Origin: Candidatus Omnitrophota bacterium
GTDB taxonomy: Bacteria; Omnitrophota; Koll11; Gygaellales; Profunditerraquicolaceae
Assembly (NCBI GenBank): GCA_028712045.1
Contig: JAQTRA010000013.1
Span: 1 to 17,783, forward strand
Direction: 5' to 3'
Length of the DNA stretch: 17,783 nucleotides
The notes beneath the pieces are model-generated. The model saw nothing but the letters and a program-made list of their open reading frames with translations. It had not been told where the DNA came from and did not search any database. The first letter of the stretch is position 1. Each line of letters opens with the position of its first letter. The position numbers and the translations under genes were made by a program. This document shows positions 2,907-17,783 of this stretch, in pieces.

Positions 2907-4271
2907 TTAGAATGTAACTTTCATGGAACCGATTAACTGAGTTGCGTTTGCCTTTTCAATATCCCAGGCTTTTCCAGGCATAAATATGCCACCAGTTAAT
3001 CCGAACTGCACATCTTCAGTGTAATCATAGGTAACTGTGGCATCAATTTCATCACCCAGATGGCTTTTACCAGCTCTAAGAGGAGTGCTAGCAGAAGTAT
3101 AGTATTGAGTAGATCCATCATAAAGATGTGAACTACCATATCCCCATGCGCCATCTTTAGCTCTAGCAAAATCATAATAACCATAAACCATTGAGAGCGT
3201 AACATCCTCAACTGGTTTACAGCTGGCTCTTAAGTTATATGCACTTAAATCTGTAAATCCTAAGAGTGCATAGGCAATACTGCTAAGTTTTTGATCATAG
3301 AACATTGAATCCCAGCTTCCTTGGCTGCTTTGTGTTCCGCTTTTGTTTCCGGAAAGATAAGTATAGCTGGCTCCAATTGAAGGAGTCATCTTAACTTTGG
3401 AAAAAGTATAATCTGCCATTGCTTGGATAGCATATGATCTACGTTGAGAATACTGAGCATTAACTGAATCATCGTATTTACCAAATTGATATGCACCTTC
3501 TAATGATAGAGTAAGGTCATCAATCGGTGTGCTTGAAACTAATATACCAACAGTATTAACTTTATCAGCTTTACCATTACTATTAGATGTACCAGCGTTA
3601 TTATCGCTTTTTAAGAAATAGTAACCAGATATGTTGGTCTTTTTGTTTAAGGCATAGGTAGCATTAATACCGTATAAATTAATGTCATTATTTCTGATAG
3701 TGCTATCTTCAGAAATCTTAGCATACATTAAATCGACAACCAAAGGATCATAATCAAGAGTTGCTCGAATTGCATCAAAGGCTTTTCTTTCGGTTAAGTC
3801 AGTAGGGATGTTGACTACGTTACTACCAACTTGTGCTCTACCAATGATTAAACCATTACCGAATTTAATCTCCTGACGACCCACAGTTAAAGTCAAAGGT
3901 GAATATAAGAATTCTTTTAAGGTTACATAAGCAAGGTCAAGGTCAATACTTGAATTTCCGTTGTCGCTAGTAGAAGTATTTGTATCATATTGGCCGTTCC
4001 ATACTCTTTCATTGATCAGTCTTACTGTGGCTTGAACATTATCCGTAAGATCTGCGTCAATGCGGACTCTTATTTGTGACATAAAGAATTTTTGATCAAT
4101 ATTCTTTTTGTCACCTGCTGCACCATTTCTTAAATTAAAATGTTCTCTGGCTACTCCACTGGCAATAATATCTCCACTGACCTTTACATTCTGTACTTCT
4201 GCGTAGGCGGCACTAAATGTGGCTCCGACTAGCAAAGCAAGCGCTAATACTAAAATCAAGCGTTTACCCAT
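2907..4271 (-). CDS. Outer-membrane porin, alginate-export-like beta-barrel (copy 3)
   Basis: This 454-residue protein has a signal peptide (MGKRLILVLALALLV, cleavage after AAYA), amphipathic beta strands throughout and the terminal VTF outer-membrane signature. It is a clear paralogue of the two porins downstream. Differences cluster in loop-like stretches, for example around residues 225-235, 265-275 and 390-410, which probably face outward. GGAGGAG lies 6 bases before the ATG. It has its own promoter (4372-4399), unlike that of the other two copies, and its own terminator (2845-2881). This suggests it may be expressed under different conditions. Substrate unknown; assignment to the alginate-export family is by motif resemblance only. 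Confidence 0.88.
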   Translation of the reverse strand: MGKRLILVLALALLVGATFSAAYAEVQNVKVSGDIIASGVAREHFNLRNGAAGDKKNIDQKFFMSQIRVRIDADLTDNVQATVRLINERVWNGQYDTNTSTSDNGNSSIDLDLAYVTLKEFLYSPLTLTVGRQEIKFGNGLIIGRAQVGSNVVNIPTDLTERKAFDAIRATLDYDPLVVDLMYAKISEDSTIRNNDINLYGINATYALNKKTNISGYYFLKSDNNAGTSNSNGKADKVNTVGILVSSTPIDDLTLSLEGAYQFGKYDDSVNAQYSQRRSYAIQAMADYTFSKVKMTPSIGASYTYLSGNKSGTQSSQGSWDSMFYDQKLSSIAYALLGFTDLSAYNLRASCKPVEDVTLSMVYGYYDFARAKDGAWGYGSSHLYDGSTQYYTSASTPLRAGKSHLGDEIDATVTYDYTEDVQFGLTGGIFMPGKAWDIEKANATQLIGSMKVTF

Positions 4272-11093: not shown

Positions 11094-12479
11094 CTAATCG
11101 TGAGGGTCTTTAGTTTCCCTGGTGTAATATTCCATGGTTGTTCCGTCGATAATCCCATTTTCATAAGCTTTGGTAACTGATTCGGCCATTGACTGCATTT
11201 TAAAGGCTTTGCTGGTTTGGATAATATTGGTTATCTGGTATAATTCATCTTTACGGATAACCCGTTTAACCGCGTCATTAACAATCAGAACTTCGGAAGC
11301 TAAAACTCTTCCCTTTTTATTCGGTTTAGGTATTAATAGCTGGACAATTACTGCGTTCAGGCAGAAAGATATCTGATTTAAGACTTTGCGGCGTTGCTCA
11401 GAGGGGAACATATTGGCCAGCCGGTCAATTGCCTGGATAGTATTAGGAGCATGAAAAGAAGCAATAACCAGGTATCCGGCTTCGGCAGTGATAAAAGCCG
11501 TAGCAATAGTTTCCATATCATCTAGCTCTCCGACAACGATAATATTGGGATCCTGCCTTAAGGTGCTTTTTAAAGCAGCAGCAAAGGAATTAGTGTCAAT
11601 TCCGACCTCGCGCTGTTTAATAATGCTTTTTATGTTAGAATGCACATATTCTATCGGCCTTTCCAGGGTAACAATAACCGCTTTTCTTTCGTGATTAATT
11701 AAGTCAACTATTGCGGACATGGTCGTGCTTTTTCCGGAGCCAGTTGGCCCGGTTACCAGGATTAAGCCTTCTCTTTGCCTGGCCAGGTCTTTGACCACGC
11801 TGGGGATATTTAACTCTTCGTAGGAAAATTCCCGGGTATTGATTAACCTGAAAGTGGCTTCCAGAAAACCTCTTTGCTGATGTAAATTTACGCGGAAACG
11901 GATCTTATCGTTATATTGTATTCCGAAATCAAGCTCTTTTTCTTTTTCAAATATCCGGATTTGCTGTTTACTCATTATGCTGTAAAGCAGTTGATTAATC
12001 TCTTCCGGTGAAAATGGCTGCATTTCCAGGGTTTCCAGCTCTCCTTCTACGCGGATCATCGGGGCCTGGTTTACTAATAGATGTAAATCTGAAGCGTTTT
12101 TCTTAACTACCAAGCCTAGTAAATTATTAATATTTATACGCTCAATCAGTTTTTTTACTTTGTCCTTGTCTTCTTCGCTGATCGAAAAAAAAGATGCCCC
12201 AATATTAAATTTTCCAAATTCCAATGTTTCAATCCGCGCCACTTTTATAGTTGCGTTGATGATATGGTCGTTATTCGGAAGTTGGAACTTAGCTTTTAAT
12301 TCTGTGCCTAAAGCAAAGATTTCATCAGACTCAAAACATAAGCCATCTGCGGACATATCCCAGATGACCAATGTTTTTTCCCCAACTGCTTTTCCTGTTG
12401 GGTCAGTCGTATTGATCGTAATCGGAAGATTTAAAAAAGTACGGTAATTTTTTCTTCGGTCAGCTTCAAAGGTAAACAA
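11094..12479 (-). CDS. PilZ-PilT fusion: type IV pilus retraction-type ATPase with N-terminal PilZ domain
   Basis: This 461-residue protein has two parts. Residues 6-115 are a PilZ domain with both c-di-GMP-binding motifs: RxxxR (R9-R13) and DxSxxG (D41-G46). Residues 118-455 are a PilT/PilU-type ATPase: the N-terminal ASDLHL signature (129-134), Walker A GPTGSGKST (243-251), the Asp-box position TLERPIE (270-276), the Walker B position VGELDD (315-320), His-box SFHA (340-343) and the C-terminal AVKRVIRKDELYQI, which matches the PilT AIRNLIRE region. Retraction of type IV pili controlled by c-di-GMP is inferred. Canonical PilT has EDP and GEMRD; here they are ERP and GELDD. The start is TTG at 12479, preceded by AGGA; no earlier ATG keeps the PilZ motifs. 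It is first in its unit, behind the promoter at 12541-12568. Confidence 0.88.
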   Translation of the reverse strand: MFTFEADRRKNYRTFLNLPITINTTDPTGKAVGEKTLVIWDMSADGLCFESDEIFALGTELKAKFQLPNNDHIINATIKVARIETLEFGKFNIGASFFSISEEDKDKVKKLIERININNLLGLVVKKNASDLHLLVNQAPMIRVEGELETLEMQPFSPEEINQLLYSIMSKQQIRIFEKEKELDFGIQYNDKIRFRVNLHQQRGFLEATFRLINTREFSYEELNIPSVVKDLARQREGLILVTGPTGSGKSTTMSAIVDLINHERKAVIVTLERPIEYVHSNIKSIIKQREVGIDTNSFAAALKSTLRQDPNIIVVGELDDMETIATAFITAEAGYLVIASFHAPNTIQAIDRLANMFPSEQRRKVLNQISFCLNAVIVQLLIPKPNKKGRVLASEVLIVNDAVKRVIRKDELYQITNIIQTSKAFKMQSMAESVTKAYENGIIDGTTMEYYTRETKDPHD

Positions 12480-12598: not shown

Positions 12599-13315
12599 CT
12601 AATTTACCGGTTTAATGGTGGAAAGTATTGCGTAAACCTTATTTAAATCAAGTTGCGCACTGGTATCTTTGATATAGACCTTGAAGAAATTATCATCGGC
12701 ATCCAGGAGATTACAATCAAAATAATTATTAGATTGAGTAAGGGTGTAGTTTATATACCCGGATTTATCATTTATGGTAAACCTGATCATTTTGGCGCTA
12801 CCCTGGTTTCCGATATCCGGAGTAAACACGCTTTTCATAATTACGAAAAAAGCGTCAGTAATATTTTTTATTTTTCCCAGGTTGGCGTTCTGTAACCTGC
12901 GGATAAATTCGTAATTATCCTTTACTCCCTGCTTGCGGACATCCGGGTAAAGTTTAATAAAAGCAAAAGGATCCTGGCGCAGAAGATAAATTACCGCTTG
13001 ATTATTAGCATGCCTTTTTTTGTAGTAAACTTTTTTTACCAATTCCTGGACCAGAGTAAAGCCTTTGGGAGCAGAAATAGACATCCGGGGGAATTTTTGC
13101 AAGACCAGAGTAGTCAGATATTCAGGGTTAATCACCGGCGCGAAAAGTTTTTCTTCCGGCTGCATACATAGAATGGGGATATTTTTGCACTCTCCGATTC
13201 CATAAGCAATATATTGCCTTAGGATATTCGGACCGCCAAATTTAATTACAAAGGCTATGGCCAGGCAAAATACCAGCAGGTTAATTATAAATTTAGGCAG
13301 TGGTTTAGTTTTCAT
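12599..13315 (-). CDS. Membrane-anchored protein of unknown function
   Basis: This 238-residue protein has one N-terminal hydrophobic segment (residues 9-27) behind a basic start (MKTKPLPK), so it is probably anchored in the inner membrane with the rest in the periplasm. Next come a Cys pair (C43, C50) in GECKNIPILC, a helical, lysine/arginine-rich middle (about 85-150), and a beta-rich C-terminal third with many Asn and Asp residues. I do not recognise a family. The ATG overlaps the panB stop by 11 bases, so it is translated with panB and is last in that operon. A link to pantothenate or to metal uptake is only contextual. Confidence 0.75.
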   Translation of the reverse strand: MKTKPLPKFIINLLVFCLAIAFVIKFGGPNILRQYIAYGIGECKNIPILCMQPEEKLFAPVINPEYLTTLVLQKFPRMSISAPKGFTLVQELVKKVYYKKRHANNQAVIYLLRQDPFAFIKLYPDVRKQGVKDNYEFIRRLQNANLGKIKNITDAFFVIMKSVFTPDIGNQGSAKMIRFTINDKSGYINYTLTQSNNYFDCNLLDADDNFFKVYIKDTSAQLDLNKVYAILSTIKPVN

Positions 13316-14129
13316 TTATCTTTTTAAGTTCTTCTTCTTTGATGCTGAAAGAATGCTCTGGGCCGGGAAATTTTTCGCTGGTAACCTCATTTTTAAAATC
13401 TTCCAGCGCTTTTAAAATTAATGGCGAAAGATCGACATATTTTTTTACAAATTTCGGTGTGTATCTTTGAAAAAGCCCGAGCATATCGTTAATCACTAAG
13501 ACCTGGCCGTCACAATGGATGCCTGCTCCGATACCAATGGTGGGAATTTTTATTTTTTTGGTAATCAGTTCGGCAAGTTTATCCGGGACGCACTCTAAAA
13601 CAATGGCAAAACATCCTTTTTTTTCCAGCTCTACGGCTTGGTTGATTAAGCGTTTGGCAGCTTCTGCGTTTTTGCCTTGCACAATAAAGCCGCCAATTTT
13701 ATCTGCTGTCTGAGGAGTCAACCCGATATGCCCCATTACCGCAATACCTGCGTTAATGATCTGTCCGGTTACTTCTAAGCAATGCTCAAACCACTCTAAT
13801 TTTACTGCCTGGCACTTAGCTTCCTGGATAAATCTTTTAGCATTTTTTACGCACTCTTCTTCGTTGACTTGATAGGAATCATAAGGCATATCTGCCACAA
13901 CTAAGCTGTTTTTTACGGCGCGGGTTACCGCTTTAGCATGGTGCATCATCTCCGGCATTCCAATTTCAGTTGTGGAATTAAGGCCCAAGACAACGTTAGC
14001 CAGGGAATCTCCCACGATAATTATATCAATTCTTGCCTTATCTACCAGGCTGGCTATGGGGTAATCGTAGGCAGTCAGCACGGTAATCTTGCGTTTATTC
14101 TTTAGGTTTTTTATCTCTTCTATGTTCAA
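13305..14129 (-). CDS. panB: 3-methyl-2-oxobutanoate hydroxymethyltransferase (ketopantoate hydroxymethyltransferase)
   Basis: This cytosolic enzyme adds a hydroxymethyl group from methylene-tetrahydrofolate to ketoisovalerate, giving ketopantoate, the first committed step of pantothenate/CoA synthesis. Motifs are TAYDYPIASLVD, VGDSLA (metal ligand D41), VADMPYDSY (D80), VKLEW (E112), MGHIGLTPQ and IVLECVP (catalytic E179); each lies within four residues of its E. coli position (D45, D84, E114, E181). I place the start at the TTG at 14129, with AAGGGA 6 bases upstream, giving 274 residues. A TTG at 14150, overlapping the transporter stop, is the alternative. The ketopantoate reductase gene is in the same operon (right window edge). 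Confidence 0.94.
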   Translation of the reverse strand: MNIEEIKNLKNKRKITVLTAYDYPIASLVDKARIDIIIVGDSLANVVLGLNSTTEIGMPEMMHHAKAVTRAVKNSLVVADMPYDSYQVNEEECVKNAKRFIQEAKCQAVKLEWFEHCLEVTGQIINAGIAVMGHIGLTPQTADKIGGFIVQGKNAEAAKRLINQAVELEKKGCFAIVLECVPDKLAELITKKIKIPTIGIGAGIHCDGQVLVINDMLGLFQRYTPKFVKKYVDLSPLILKALEDFKNEVTSEKFPGPEHSFSIKEEELKKINEN

Positions 14130-14139
14130 AACTATTCCC

Positions 14140-15378
14140 TTATTTGACAAATGCTGTAATAAATAAGATCACGGAAAGTAAGATCATAATTGCGATTATC
14201 GATATAGTACAAATATTGTAGAAGCGGGAGTTGGTGTGTTTGCCCATCAACCTTTTATTATTTACTAAAAGGAGCATGAAGATTAACACAAAAGGAAGCA
14301 AGATGCCGTTGGTGGCTTGGGATATAAGCATGATCGGAATAAGTTTTACTCCGGGGATTAATATTACTGCAGCTCCAATTACGATAATTGCGGTGTATAA
14401 GCTGTAAAATTGCGGTGCTTCTTTGAAGGTGCGGTTAACCCCTATCTCCCAACCCATGCCTTCGCATACGGAGTAAGCAGTGGATAAAGGCAAAATGCAG
14501 GCCGAAAATACCGAGGCGTTAAGTAAGCCAAAAGCAAAAAGATAAAAGCAATATTGCCCGGCTAGCGGCTTTAGGGCCAGAGCAGCGTCTTTGGCTGATT
14601 CAATCCGGATACCATTAGCAAAAAGAGTGTTGGCGCAGACAATTACAATGAAAATAGCGATAATATTAACCACAAAAGCGCCGATGATTACATCCATTCG
14701 GCTGTATTTGTAATTCTCAAGCTTGATCCCCTTTTCTACTACTGAAGATTGTTGGTAAAACTGCATCCAGGGCGCGATGGTCGTACCGATAACTCCGATA
14801 AGCATCAGGATATAGGCTTTGTCAAACTGAAAACTTGGAGAAATCGAGCTGGTGGCAACTACTTTCCAATCAGGTTTAGATAAGAATCCTGAAACTATGT
14901 AACAAACATAAAATAAACAAGCCACCAAAAACACTTTTTCCACGGATTTATAGGTTCCTTTTACAATTAACCACCAGACAAATAACGCACAGACAGGTAC
15001 AAGCAGGTATTTGCTGATCCCGAATAGTTCAGCGCTGGCCGCAATTCCGGCAAACTCTGAAATGGTGTTAAAGATATTAGAAAAAACTAAAACTACCATG
15101 GCATAAAAAGCCACTCTCACTCCGAACTCTTCCCGGATTAAATCGGCCAGTCCTTTTCCGGTTACCACGGCCATGCGGCTGCACATCTCCTGAATAATTA
15201 CCAAGGCAATGATAATGGGAATAAACGACCAGATCAATGCATAGCCGTAATGTGCGCCGGCTACTGAATAAGTAGTAATTCCTCCTGCGTCATTATCTAC
15301 ATTAGCGGTAATAATTCCCGGCCCCATTACCGAAAGAAAAATTAAAATTTTTGCCCAGGATGATTTTAAATTTTTCAT
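14140..15378 (-). CDS. SLC11/NRAMP-related divalent metal transporter, probably of the Mg2+-transporting (NRMT) branch
   Basis: This 412-residue inner-membrane protein has about 11 hydrophobic segments in the NRAMP (LeuT-fold) layout. TM1 reads MGPGIITANVDNDAGGITTYS: the metal-binding DPGN of classical NRAMPs is D30-A-G-G here. TM6 reads GVIGTTIAPWMQFYQQ: the metal-binding Met of the MPH motif is Ala202, followed by P-W. Loss of the soft Met ligand and the DPGN Asn is what I recall for NRAMP-related Mg2+ transporters, so Mg2+ (or another hard ion) is more likely than Mn2+/Fe2+. I choose the ATG at 15378, whose ATGA overlap couples it to the MgtE_N/CBS gene; a TTG at 15417 is possible. The gene ends 10 bases before the chosen panB start. 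Confidence 0.87.
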   Translation of the reverse strand: MKNLKSSWAKILIFLSVMGPGIITANVDNDAGGITTYSVAGAHYGYALIWSFIPIIIALVIIQEMCSRMAVVTGKGLADLIREEFGVRVAFYAMVVLVFSNIFNTISEFAGIAASAELFGISKYLLVPVCALFVWWLIVKGTYKSVEKVFLVACLFYVCYIVSGFLSKPDWKVVATSSISPSFQFDKAYILMLIGVIGTTIAPWMQFYQQSSVVEKGIKLENYKYSRMDVIIGAFVVNIIAIFIVIVCANTLFANGIRIESAKDAALALKPLAGQYCFYLFAFGLLNASVFSACILPLSTAYSVCEGMGWEIGVNRTFKEAPQFYSLYTAIIVIGAAVILIPGVKLIPIMLISQATNGILLPFVLIFMLLLVNNKRLMGKHTNSRFYNICTISIIAIMILLSVILFITAFVK

Positions 15379-16721
15379 GTTTTTTGAAAGATTTTTATTC
15401 GTTTTAGCCTGCGCCAAGCAAAAGCAATCAGTTGGCTTAAAATATCGTCCGCAGTGATGATTCCTTGCAAGACATTATTTTCATCGATAACCGGTATCGC
15501 GAAATATTTGTATTTTTCCATCAGATAAGCTACTTCTTTAACGCTGGAATCCAGGTGTACAAAATAAGTTTTAGGAAATACAGAATTTACAATCGGCTCG
15601 CTGGGATTAGCCAGGATTAATCTGCGGAAATTAGTCGCCCCAATTAAATGGTGTTCCTGGTCAATGATATAAATAAACTGTGCGGGTTCGGATTTAAATT
15701 TTCTTTCTTTTATCTGCTTTAAGACCATCTCTACCAGGGTATCTTTGGTAAAGGCAATATACTCAGTGGTCATTAGGCCTCCAGCGGAGTCCGAAGAGTA
15801 ACCGAGCAGCTGCGAAAGCCTTTTAGAGTATTTATTTTCAATCAAATTTAAAATGTGTTTAGTTTTTTCCCGCGGCAATTTTTCCAGGAAGTCGGTGGCT
15901 TCATCAGAAGGGATGTTATTGAGTAGTTCAGAAACTTCGAAATCATTCATCTCATCCAGCAGTGAGCGCTGAGTTTTAAAATCTATATTCGTAAAAATTT
16001 TAGTTTTATTAATCAGATTAAGTGATTTAAAAAGCGCGGTCTGATGTTTAATGCTTAAATCTAAAAAAATATCTCCTAAATCTGCAGCCGGAATATTGGC
16101 TAAGTTTTTTTGGGGAACGTCAATTTTAATGGTCATGCTGACCGGGTTGATCGTCAGCGGTTGGATATATTTCCAGGATATCAAATGTTCAAGAGATAAA
16201 TATTTTGCCTTAGGGTTTAATAGCTTGACGATCAGGTCAACCCATTTTTCAAAACCTAATCGCCTGATGATCCCGCGGCTTCCGATGTCAACGTGCGCGA
16301 TCATTAAAGTATGGTCAACTGATAATAAATGTACGTCGTTTACGCGGATAACCTTATGGTTATGCGTGTCGACAACTTGCTGATCTAAGATATCGCGCCT
16401 TAAAGTAAGCTCTTTTTTTTCGTCATGAGTTTCTCTAAATTGCAGGGTATTTTTTTCGATCTTTAGGGTTACTCCGTCTATTCCCAATTTATCAATATCT
16501 TGCCAATTGATAATCGCATATTTTCGGTTGGGAAAGCCTTTGCGGATAATTAAAGCATCTGAAAGCGGGTATACTTGGGATGGCTTTACGGCAATGTCAT
16601 AGACCTCTCCTGCTGGTTTGCCGTTTTTGTCAATTACCTGTTTATCCATGAGTTGAGAGAAAAAAATAAACATTTTGGAGGCGGATATATTTGTCGCAAG
16701 AGTTTGATTAAATAGATTCAT
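15375..16721 (-). CDS. Soluble PRC-barrel / MgtE_N / CBS-pair protein (MgtE-like metal-sensor module without channel)
   Basis: This 448-residue protein has no membrane segments. In order: two PRC-barrel-like beta domains (about 22-95 and 108-170), a helical superhelix resembling the MgtE N domain (about 215-315; MNDFEVSELLNNIPSDEATD, KLPREKTKHILNLI), then a CBS pair (about 320-440) introduced by YSSDSAGGLMTTEYIAF, the hallmark junction of MgtE-type Mg2+ channels. In MgtE, Mg2+ between the N and CBS domains closes the channel; here the channel domain is absent. The stop overlaps the ATG of the NRAMP-like transporter (ATGA), so the two are co-translated. I infer that it senses cytosolic Mg2+ (or another divalent ion or a nucleotide) and gates that transporter. 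The ATG at 16721 lies one base after the apbE stop. Confidence 0.83.
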   Translation of the reverse strand: MNLFNQTLATNISASKMFIFFSQLMDKQVIDKNGKPAGEVYDIAVKPSQVYPLSDALIIRKGFPNRKYAIINWQDIDKLGIDGVTLKIEKNTLQFRETHDEKKELTLRRDILDQQVVDTHNHKVIRVNDVHLLSVDHTLMIAHVDIGSRGIIRRLGFEKWVDLIVKLLNPKAKYLSLEHLISWKYIQPLTINPVSMTIKIDVPQKNLANIPAADLGDIFLDLSIKHQTALFKSLNLINKTKIFTNIDFKTQRSLLDEMNDFEVSELLNNIPSDEATDFLEKLPREKTKHILNLIENKYSKRLSQLLGYSSDSAGGLMTTEYIAFTKDTLVEMVLKQIKERKFKSEPAQFIYIIDQEHHLIGATNFRRLILANPSEPIVNSVFPKTYFVHLDSSVKEVAYLMEKYKYFAIPVIDENNVLQGIITADDILSQLIAFAWRRLKRIKIFQKT

Positions 16722-16722
16722 T

Positions 16723-17673
16723 CTAAAATTGTTTCTTTTCGGCGTTGAACTTTTTAAGTAATTCTTTGCTTTTAGTTTCCTCTAGTATAAACAAAGCTGT
16801 GGATAAGGCATCAGCAGTTAAGCCCTGGCCGGCAATTATAGTTACCGAAGCAACCAGGGTGTCTGCCGGGTATCCTGTTTTCGGGTTGATAATGTGGCAG
16901 TAGCGCACACCATCTTTTAAGAAAAACTGTTCGTAATCTCCACTGGTGGATACGGATTGATTTTTTAATTCCAAAGTTTGCGAAACACCGGGTTTACGGG
17001 GATTTTTGATCCCGATCTTCCAGGGTGAATTAAATTTATTTCCTAAAGCGTAAACTTGTCCGCCGGCATTAATCAGGCAGCTGTTAATTTTATGCTCTTT
17101 AAGTTTTTTTACCGCGCAATCTAAGGCGTATCCTTTGGCTATCCCTCCCAGGTCGATTTTCATTTTGGGAAGCTTAAATTCTACCACAGAATCATTTTCC
17201 TGCAAAATAATTTTATCACTGCCGATGATTTTAAGAGTGGAGTTTATTTCATCTAACGTAGGTACTTTTGTTTTAAGGTCAGAAAATCCCCAGAGATCAA
17301 CCAGGGGAGCAACGGTAATATCAAATGCGCCATCAGTAAGCTGGTAAAATTCTTTTGATTTTTTTATAATGTAAAAAGTATCGGAACTTACTTTTAGCTT
17401 TCCAGTATGATTAAGTATAGAGACTTCACTAGTGGGGATATATTTGCTAAGTAATTGGTCGAGCCGGTCGACTTCGGTAAAAACAATTTTGCCGGCTGTT
17501 TTATCCGGGGAGGTAACTTCCCAGAATGTGCCCATAAGGATGCGGTTATCCCGGTAAAGTTTTTCAGTTTGTTTATTTATCTGAGGCCAGTAATGTTTAT
17601 AGGCTAAAGTTATCCCCCAGCCGATGAATAAAAAGATTAACAGGTATTTACGGGTTTTTTTACTGTAAGCCAT
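16723..17673 (-). CDS. apbE: ApbE-family FAD:protein FMN transferase
   Basis: This enzyme covalently attaches FMN from FAD to Ser/Thr residues of exported or membrane flavoproteins (for example RnfG/NqrC-type subunits) with Mg2+. It has 316 residues, with an N-terminal membrane anchor (about 10-25) and no lipobox Cys. Family motifs: RILMGTFWEV (44-53), GAFDITVAPLVDLWGF, KIDLGGIAKGYALD, INAGG, STSGDYEQFF...CHIINPKTGYP and GLTADALSTALF, which carries the metal-binding TADA-like segment. The C-terminus ends about 20 residues earlier than in many homologues (KKFNAEKKQF). The start is 5 bases after the panE stop and the next gene begins one base after its own stop. No flavoprotein substrate gene is in the window. 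Confidence 0.92.
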   Translation of the reverse strand: MAYSKKTRKYLLIFLFIGWGITLAYKHYWPQINKQTEKLYRDNRILMGTFWEVTSPDKTAGKIVFTEVDRLDQLLSKYIPTSEVSILNHTGKLKVSSDTFYIIKKSKEFYQLTDGAFDITVAPLVDLWGFSDLKTKVPTLDEINSTLKIIGSDKIILQENDSVVEFKLPKMKIDLGGIAKGYALDCAVKKLKEHKINSCLINAGGQVYALGNKFNSPWKIGIKNPRKPGVSQTLELKNQSVSTSGDYEQFFLKDGVRYCHIINPKTGYPADTLVASVTIIAGQGLTADALSTALFILEETKSKELLKKFNAEKKQF

Positions 17674-17678
17674 TAAAT

Positions 17679-17783
17679 TTACCTAACTGAATATTCGTAA
17701 CTGGTTTCTATGGTTTTGACTATGTCAACCAGGAATTTATTGGTGGGTACGTCAATGCCCAGCTCCTGGCCCAGCCGTACAAT
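17679..17783 (-). CDS. panE: 2-dehydropantoate 2-reductase (ketopantoate reductase), C-terminal end only
   Basis: An open frame enters at the right edge and ends at TAA (17679-17681), giving the last 34 residues. IVRLGQELGIDVPTNKFLVD resembles the end of the all-helical C-terminal domain of ketopantoate reductases, where a G-x-x-x-G-I-x-x-P-x-N segment is followed by a helix. The enzyme reduces ketopantoate, the PanB product, to pantoate with NADPH. The presence of panB four genes downstream supports the call. Only the tail is visible, so other members of the ketopantoate reductase/ApbA family remain possible. Confidence 0.65.
   Translation of the reverse strand: MVRLGQELGIDVPTNKFLVDIVKTIETSYEYSVR

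Follow-up and report, generated by a model that had tools for sequence, protein, structure and literature searches.

Most members of the nrmT group of SLC11 (Nramp) transporters have a neighbouring gene whose product is homologous to the cytoplasmic N domain of the Mg2+ channel MgtE, according to Shin et al. 2014 (PMC4072509), which covers nrmT-MgtE fragment operons of Clostridium acetobutylicum and Acidobacterium capsulatum. The same text proposes feedback regulation or a chaperone role for the MgtE-like neighbour, leaves its role open, and places an M-box riboswitch upstream of only a subset of these operons. The nearest solved relative of the transporter described below is EleNRMT (PDB 7qia; PMC8806188); its text does not use the terms CBS, operon or adjacent gene, and the portion covered here discusses no sensor partner. 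The third system of reference is the MgtE channel itself (PDB 2zy9, 2yvy), in which N and CBS domains form the cytosolic gating module.

Here we describe a locus of this kind in a 17,783-nucleotide stretch of DNA from a Candidatus Omnitrophota bacterium (contig JAQTRA010000013.1, assembly GCA_028712045.1), the whole of which is referred to as the window. As in the C. acetobutylicum and A. capsulatum operons, an NRMT-clade SLC11 gene (412 aa, 14140..15378, minus strand; PF01566, E 4.8e-105) lies beside an MgtE-fragment gene (448 aa, 15375..16721, minus strand), whose product we call the sensor. The sensor TGA overlaps the transporter ATG at 15378 as ATGA (15375..15378, minus strand), as the initial annotation had stated; the mechanically delimited reading frame of the transporter begins at a TTG at 15417. 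Compared with those operons, the window carries no M-box at the gathering score, has apbE and panB on either side of the pair, and comes from an Omnitrophota lineage in which MgtE and the pair alternate at this site. Since both the pairing and a feedback role were put forward in print in 2014, the two-part Mg2+ uptake system with a reused sensor that the initial annotation proposed is not a new kind of system, while its assignment to a Mg2+ uptake context holds. The apbE-panB exchange and the complementary distribution of the pair and MgtE appear to be unreported among open-licence papers. We propose that sensor and transporter together act as a single Mg2+ uptake unit in the role of the MgtE channel, under feedback by the sensor, a reading to which we assign a probability of about 0.57. 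That the pair performs MgtE's task of Mg2+ uptake is very probable on the basis of adjacency in genome surveys, the rarity of MgtE in pair genomes, exchange at the site upstream of panB, and the 27 of 29 genomes with the pair at that site in which neither MgtE nor CorA was detected.

The exchange site was examined in the taxonomic order of genome G097, which contains the window's nearest kin (G001, G002, G068 and G109) and in which panB was found in 103 of 117 genomes. The 89 loci compared comprise 80 fetched regions, 8 earlier ones and the window, that is, 88 of the 103 panB genomes plus the window; in most of the 15 genomes not used, the panB match was partial or weaker. The stretch upstream of panB holds the sensor and NRMT in 30 loci (window included), a full-length MgtE in 21, an NRMT whose cut sensor lies at a distance of 4.8 kb in one, and neither pair nor MgtE in 37; the pair and MgtE occur together in 0/89. 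Among the 37, CorA is present in two (TIGR00383, 285 and 294 bits) and an MgtA-type ATPase in one (TIGR01524, 1048 bits), and 14 were unclassed, 13 of them for want of a detected apbE. The occupant lies mostly between apbE and panB, with apbE seen in 23/30 pair loci and 17/21 MgtE loci, and in some loci an extra stretch of ~0.8 or ~1.4 kb separates it from apbE or panB.

The swap at this site has happened more than once, on one occasion recently. Locus L274, which holds MgtE, and locus L281, which holds the pair, form a sister group with 100% bootstrap support. Their flanking DNA is 92.6-96.2% identical over ~9.8 kb, with one small upstream length difference besides the occupant; identity reaches to ~55 bases from the apbE end and resumes 20-35 bases inside panB. 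L266, whose PanB is closest to that of the window (86%), holds MgtE at the site and matches the window at 78-85% in the flanks, as far as position 16777 and again from 14128. A tree of 64 loci was built from PanB and GlyS, on which the 38 loci with the pair (25) or MgtE (13) required 11 changes, compared with a mean of 11.1 for shuffled labels (588/1000 shuffles as low); by this test, occupancy bears no trace of kinship. The tree kept its 63 nodes when weak branches were collapsed, so the changes are those on the tree as built. Elsewhere in the 29 genomes with the pair at the site, MgtE was found in one, CorA in one, and neither in 27; the importer searches in this order covered MgtE and CorA but no Nramp, MgtA-type pump or CorC.

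A complementary distribution of the pair and MgtE was also found in samples of two phyla, one of 97 genomes from the phylum to which G001 belongs (the source of locus L006, Omnitrophota) and one of 99 genomes from the phylum of G113 (locus L011, Syntrophaceae). Channel MgtE is present in 1/17 pair genomes versus 48/80 others in the first phylum (Fisher 3e-5) and in 2/20 versus 59/79 in the second (Fisher 1.5e-7), giving 3/37 versus 107/159 for both. In the first phylum, neither MgtE nor CorA was found in 12/17 pair genomes versus 10/80 others. Among pair genomes reached through their loci, 6/66 had an MgtE above the cut-off. The Fisher tests ignore kinship, and genome completeness was not given, so that importer absences may reflect assembly gaps. 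An M-box lies upstream of 10/67 chromosomal pair loci, 2/5 plasmid pair loci and 2/7 sensor-less NRMT loci.

The same two samples were surveyed starting from MgtE_N, excluding matches above E 1e-12 (seven such matches in the first phylum and every weaker one in the second); the second-phylum and combined figures hold among the matches listed. In the first phylum, 65 strong matches divide into 17 channel-less proteins and 48 full MgtE, with an Nramp gene within 2.5 kb of 17/17 and 0/48, respectively. In the second, 27/92 matches are channel-less, and Nramp adjoins 20 of these 27 (2 on opposite strands) versus 0/65 full MgtE. Combined, the figures are 37/44 versus 0/113, and the recurring neighbourhood that the initial annotation had asked for is thus present across phyla. 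The seven channel-less matches that lack an adjoining Nramp include three frames of just 153-283 aa and matches in G258, G221, G195 and G238; in G258 and G221 an NRMT-type gene lies on a separate contig from the sensor, and the G195 match is a different protein (28 bits). Conversely, 17 of 23 Nramp genes that do not adjoin a sensor were examined, of which 8 have the canonical DPGN motif, 2 are of NRMT type (G258, G221) and 7 have neither motif. The closest approach of those eight canonical transporters to a sensor is ~5 kb (L147, with an NRMT in between). These counts indicate a sensor-transporter arrangement that is not due to chance. In two cases (L154/L164 and L155/L165), an NRMT-type transporter and a sensor were observed in the same genome without being neighbours.

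A transporter-first scan of genome contigs retained the best 80 of 587 NRMT relatives, a set therefore biased toward near kin. The sensor accompanies the transporter in 67 of these 80, with the sensor first in 64, the transporter first in 2 (L038, L052) and the genes on opposite strands in 1 (L054); at L077 the sensor precedes the transporter, the other listed order being an artefact of a frame cut at a contig end. Of the 13 loci with no counted sensor, 4 begin <700 bases from a contig end and 2 (L033, L048) have partial matches at the end. The four-base overlap seen in the window recurs in 15/65 measured sensor-transporter gaps, and the pair is also found on five plasmid loci, picked from 89 matching records, in both gene orders. 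PyrR binding sites were observed a short distance ahead of the sensor gene, on the other strand, at L012, L013, L019 and L041 (Smithella, Syntrophaceae and a deltaproteobacterial bin).

With regard to the transporter, sequence comparison places it with the NRMTs rather than with MntH/DMT, EleNRMT being its closest solved relative (E 1.9e-115) ahead of the next-best chain, MntH (1.6e-22). The NRMT binding site is defined by DxxG in TM1 and TxxA/T in TM6 (PMC8806188), and the window transporter, in common with EleNRMT, has both, as D30-A-G-G33 (15280..15291, minus strand) and T199-T-I-A202 (14773..14784, minus strand). The site is nearly invariant across 67 aligned members (D, G and T in 67/67; A in 66/67, T in 1), and the structural model of the window transporter has a pLDDT of 91.8. 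Mg2+ is the probable substrate, judging from the NRMT site, the kin of the protein and its exchange with known Mg2+ importers. A locus whose record is titled Bifidobacterium breve (L068) has a transporter that clusters with Acidobacteriota, and its bin name is probably wrong.

The sensor matches the Pfam families MgtE_N (residues 211-311, 15789..16091, minus strand; E 5.5e-20) and CBS (a CBS pair at residues 312-431, 15429..15788, minus strand; E 2.3e-14) and lacks the MgtE channel domain PF01769; it was ruled out as an MgtE channel on this ground and with a TIGR00400 score of 155.7 bits against a cut-off of 232.75. A fold search found the N plus CBS fold of MgtE preserved intact, with the PRC part scarcely covered. 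The initial annotation had described an MgtE N/CBS module with PRC barrels and no channel. The module and the absence of the channel are borne out; the first PRC match (E 0.0033, residues 19-86) falls below the Pfam cut-off, and the second barrel is suggested by the structural model, which has two beta-rich units ahead of the N domain. The first unit, a PRC-like barrel, spans residues 14-96 (16434..16682, minus strand), and PRC was matched in 63/69 aligned sensor-family members at E <= 0.01, the window included. The second, a putative PRC-like unit by model and conservation, spans residues 104-203 (16113..16412, minus strand). FliG_M also matched 40/69 sensors at E <= 0.01, and many weak genome matches to MgtE_N may be FliG. 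At L098, L104, L108 and L110, Omnitrophota have a second sensor type, in which the end is shorter and the transporter gene precedes that of the sensor.

Of eight MgtE Mg2+ ligand residues examined, the window sensor keeps three, with D273 corresponding to D91 (Mg4), D277 to D95 (Mg6) and D426, in the CBS part, to D247 (Mg4). The five changed positions are E59, D226, D250, E258 and D259, where K241 replaces E59 (Mg7), K405 replaces D226 and S429 replaces D250 (Mg5). The C-terminal helix of the sensor (residues 424-447, 15381..15452, minus strand; from the model and the ligand comparison) is basic, with R437 and R438 in place of E258 and D259 of the acidic MgtE plug helix. The window sensor lacks the full set of acidic ligands named for MgtE sites Mg2 to Mg7. 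The position of D95 (Mg6) is D in 68/69 sensor-family members. The residues that contact ATP in MgtE are partly altered (D188 to R, N203 to F).

In the proposed mechanism, the transporter would import Mg2+, and the free N/CBS protein would bind Mg2+ at the retained residues of sites Mg4 and Mg6. Binding would compact the sensor, which would then slow the transporter from the cytosol, providing the feedback that is built into MgtE. The domains, the overlap, the recurrence, the near one-for-one occurrence with NRMTs and the in-place exchange with MgtE, CorA and MgtA are observed, whereas Mg2+ transport by this copy, Mg2+ binding by the sensor, its direct contact with the transporter, the gating and the sign of the effect are inferred.

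The rival that survives best, which we regard as unlikely at roughly a third of the weight given above, is that the transporter has Mn2+ or more than one metal as substrate and that the sensor reads another signal such as Mn2+ or nucleotides. It is favoured by the behaviour of A. capsulatum NrmT, which acted mainly as a Mn2+ carrier, with full rescue of a Mn2+ defect and Mg2+ rescue only at low millimolar Mg2+ (PMC4072509), and by the MgtE ligands missing from the sensor; moreover, MgtE binds ATP through its own CBS part (PMC5529423). The in-place exchange with MgtE, CorA and MgtA, the genomes at the exchange site in which MgtE and CorA are undetected, the M-box at some pair loci and the changes at some MgtE ATP contacts argue against this rival.

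A role of the sensor as a partner of the transporter other than a gate, in assembly, anchoring or turnover and perhaps through the PRC part, is scarcely less plausible and likewise improbable. The second PRC-like unit has 15/34 of the sensor positions with conservation >0.85, though the mean conservation of MgtE_N is higher (0.56 versus 0.51), and NrmT was functional without its partner (PMC4072509); the intact N/CBS fold and the near-invariant aspartate at the Mg6 position speak against this role. Compact genomes often place genes in shared operons, which would fit a neighbourhood inherited without functional coupling; this very improbable reading is largely refuted by the near one-for-one occurrence of sensor and NRMT in two phylum samples, by both gene orders, and by the two NRMT genomes in which sensor and transporter are unlinked yet both present.

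Several observations weigh against the proposal that the pair is an Mg2+ uptake unit with feedback, the strongest being the A. capsulatum co-expression result, the missing ligands, the sensor-less NRMT loci and the occupants of the exchange site other than Mg2+ importers. NrmT worked without the fragment, and the A. capsulatum co-expression gave no better Mg2+ rescue while the transporter rescued Mn2+ fully (PMC4072509); as Acidobacteriaceae members carry the same DxxG-TxxA site, this site cannot separate Mg2+ from Mn2+ carriers. The window sensor is without the examined ligands of Mg2, Mg3, Mg5 and Mg7, and the residues that it retains would fit plain fold conservation too. Seven NRMT loci are sensor-less by a 200-bit cut despite a complete upstream flank (L031, L036, L040, L042, L058, L062 and L065), of which the contigs of L036 and L042 end soon downstream and L062 has a weak distant sensor match. 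No sensor-transporter fusion, for which the initial annotation had suggested a survey, was flagged among the 67 pair loci, and the longest frame (712 aa) among the listed MgtE_N matches (E <= 1e-12, two phyla) is a full MgtE; fusion was accordingly rejected as proof of contact. For CorA by itself, the lower frequency in pair genomes falls short of significance (4/17 versus 38/80 in the first phylum, Fisher 0.105). An M-box is absent from six Omnitrophota pair loci (L006-L009, L016, L039), and none was found at the gathering score in the window, which ends inside panE, a leader further upstream lying outside its view. The exchange site also holds genes other than Mg2+ importers, namely an oxidoreductase pair in 8/89 loci and an unknown frame in 1, and it is empty in 11, where apbE directly precedes panB; MgtE and CorA are both undetected in 8/11 empty-site and 8/14 unclassed genomes as well. 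The oxidoreductase pair consists of frames of ~290 and ~470 aa (L302, L318, L323, L324, L332, L336, L339 and L344; families checked for L302), and the unknown frame (L343:3327-4910) encodes 528 aa that matched neither Pfam nor NCBIfam families within the limits applied.

The remaining genes of the row lie on the same strand in the order panE (piece)-apbE-sensor-nrmT-panB. The borders of the exchange site are apbE on the left (16723..17673, minus strand) and panB on the right (13305..14150, minus strand), and the C-terminal piece of panE (ketopantoate reductase) occupies 17677..17783 on the minus strand (Pfam ApbA_C, E 0.00043, 1.6 bits below the cut-off). Several of the closest relatives of the window's proteins are assigned to Candidatus Omnitrophota, and the nearest transporter rows in named genomes are also from Omnitrophota. 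Elsewhere in the window, positions 11094-12479 encode a single protein in which a PilZ domain is fused to a PilT-type ATPase, and 1355-2734 and 2907-4271 encode paralogous Alginate_exp/porin outer-membrane proteins in tandem.

In 2014 no role had been settled for the MgtE-like fragment; if our proposal is true, sensor plus NRMT would equal MgtE in function. Within one Omnitrophota order, the apbE-panB site, where NRMT with sensor, MgtE, CorA and MgtA replace one another, amounts to a set of natural swap experiments; it tells which importer the pair replaces and offers closely related natural pairs (MgtE versus NRMT with sensor). We suggest tentatively, at slightly less than even odds, that the MgtE gating module is a separable part that clamps an unrelated secondary transporter at high cytosolic Mg2+ and that the apbE-panB site swaps four classes of importer. 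If the gating is true, one sensing module would serve two unrelated transport folds.
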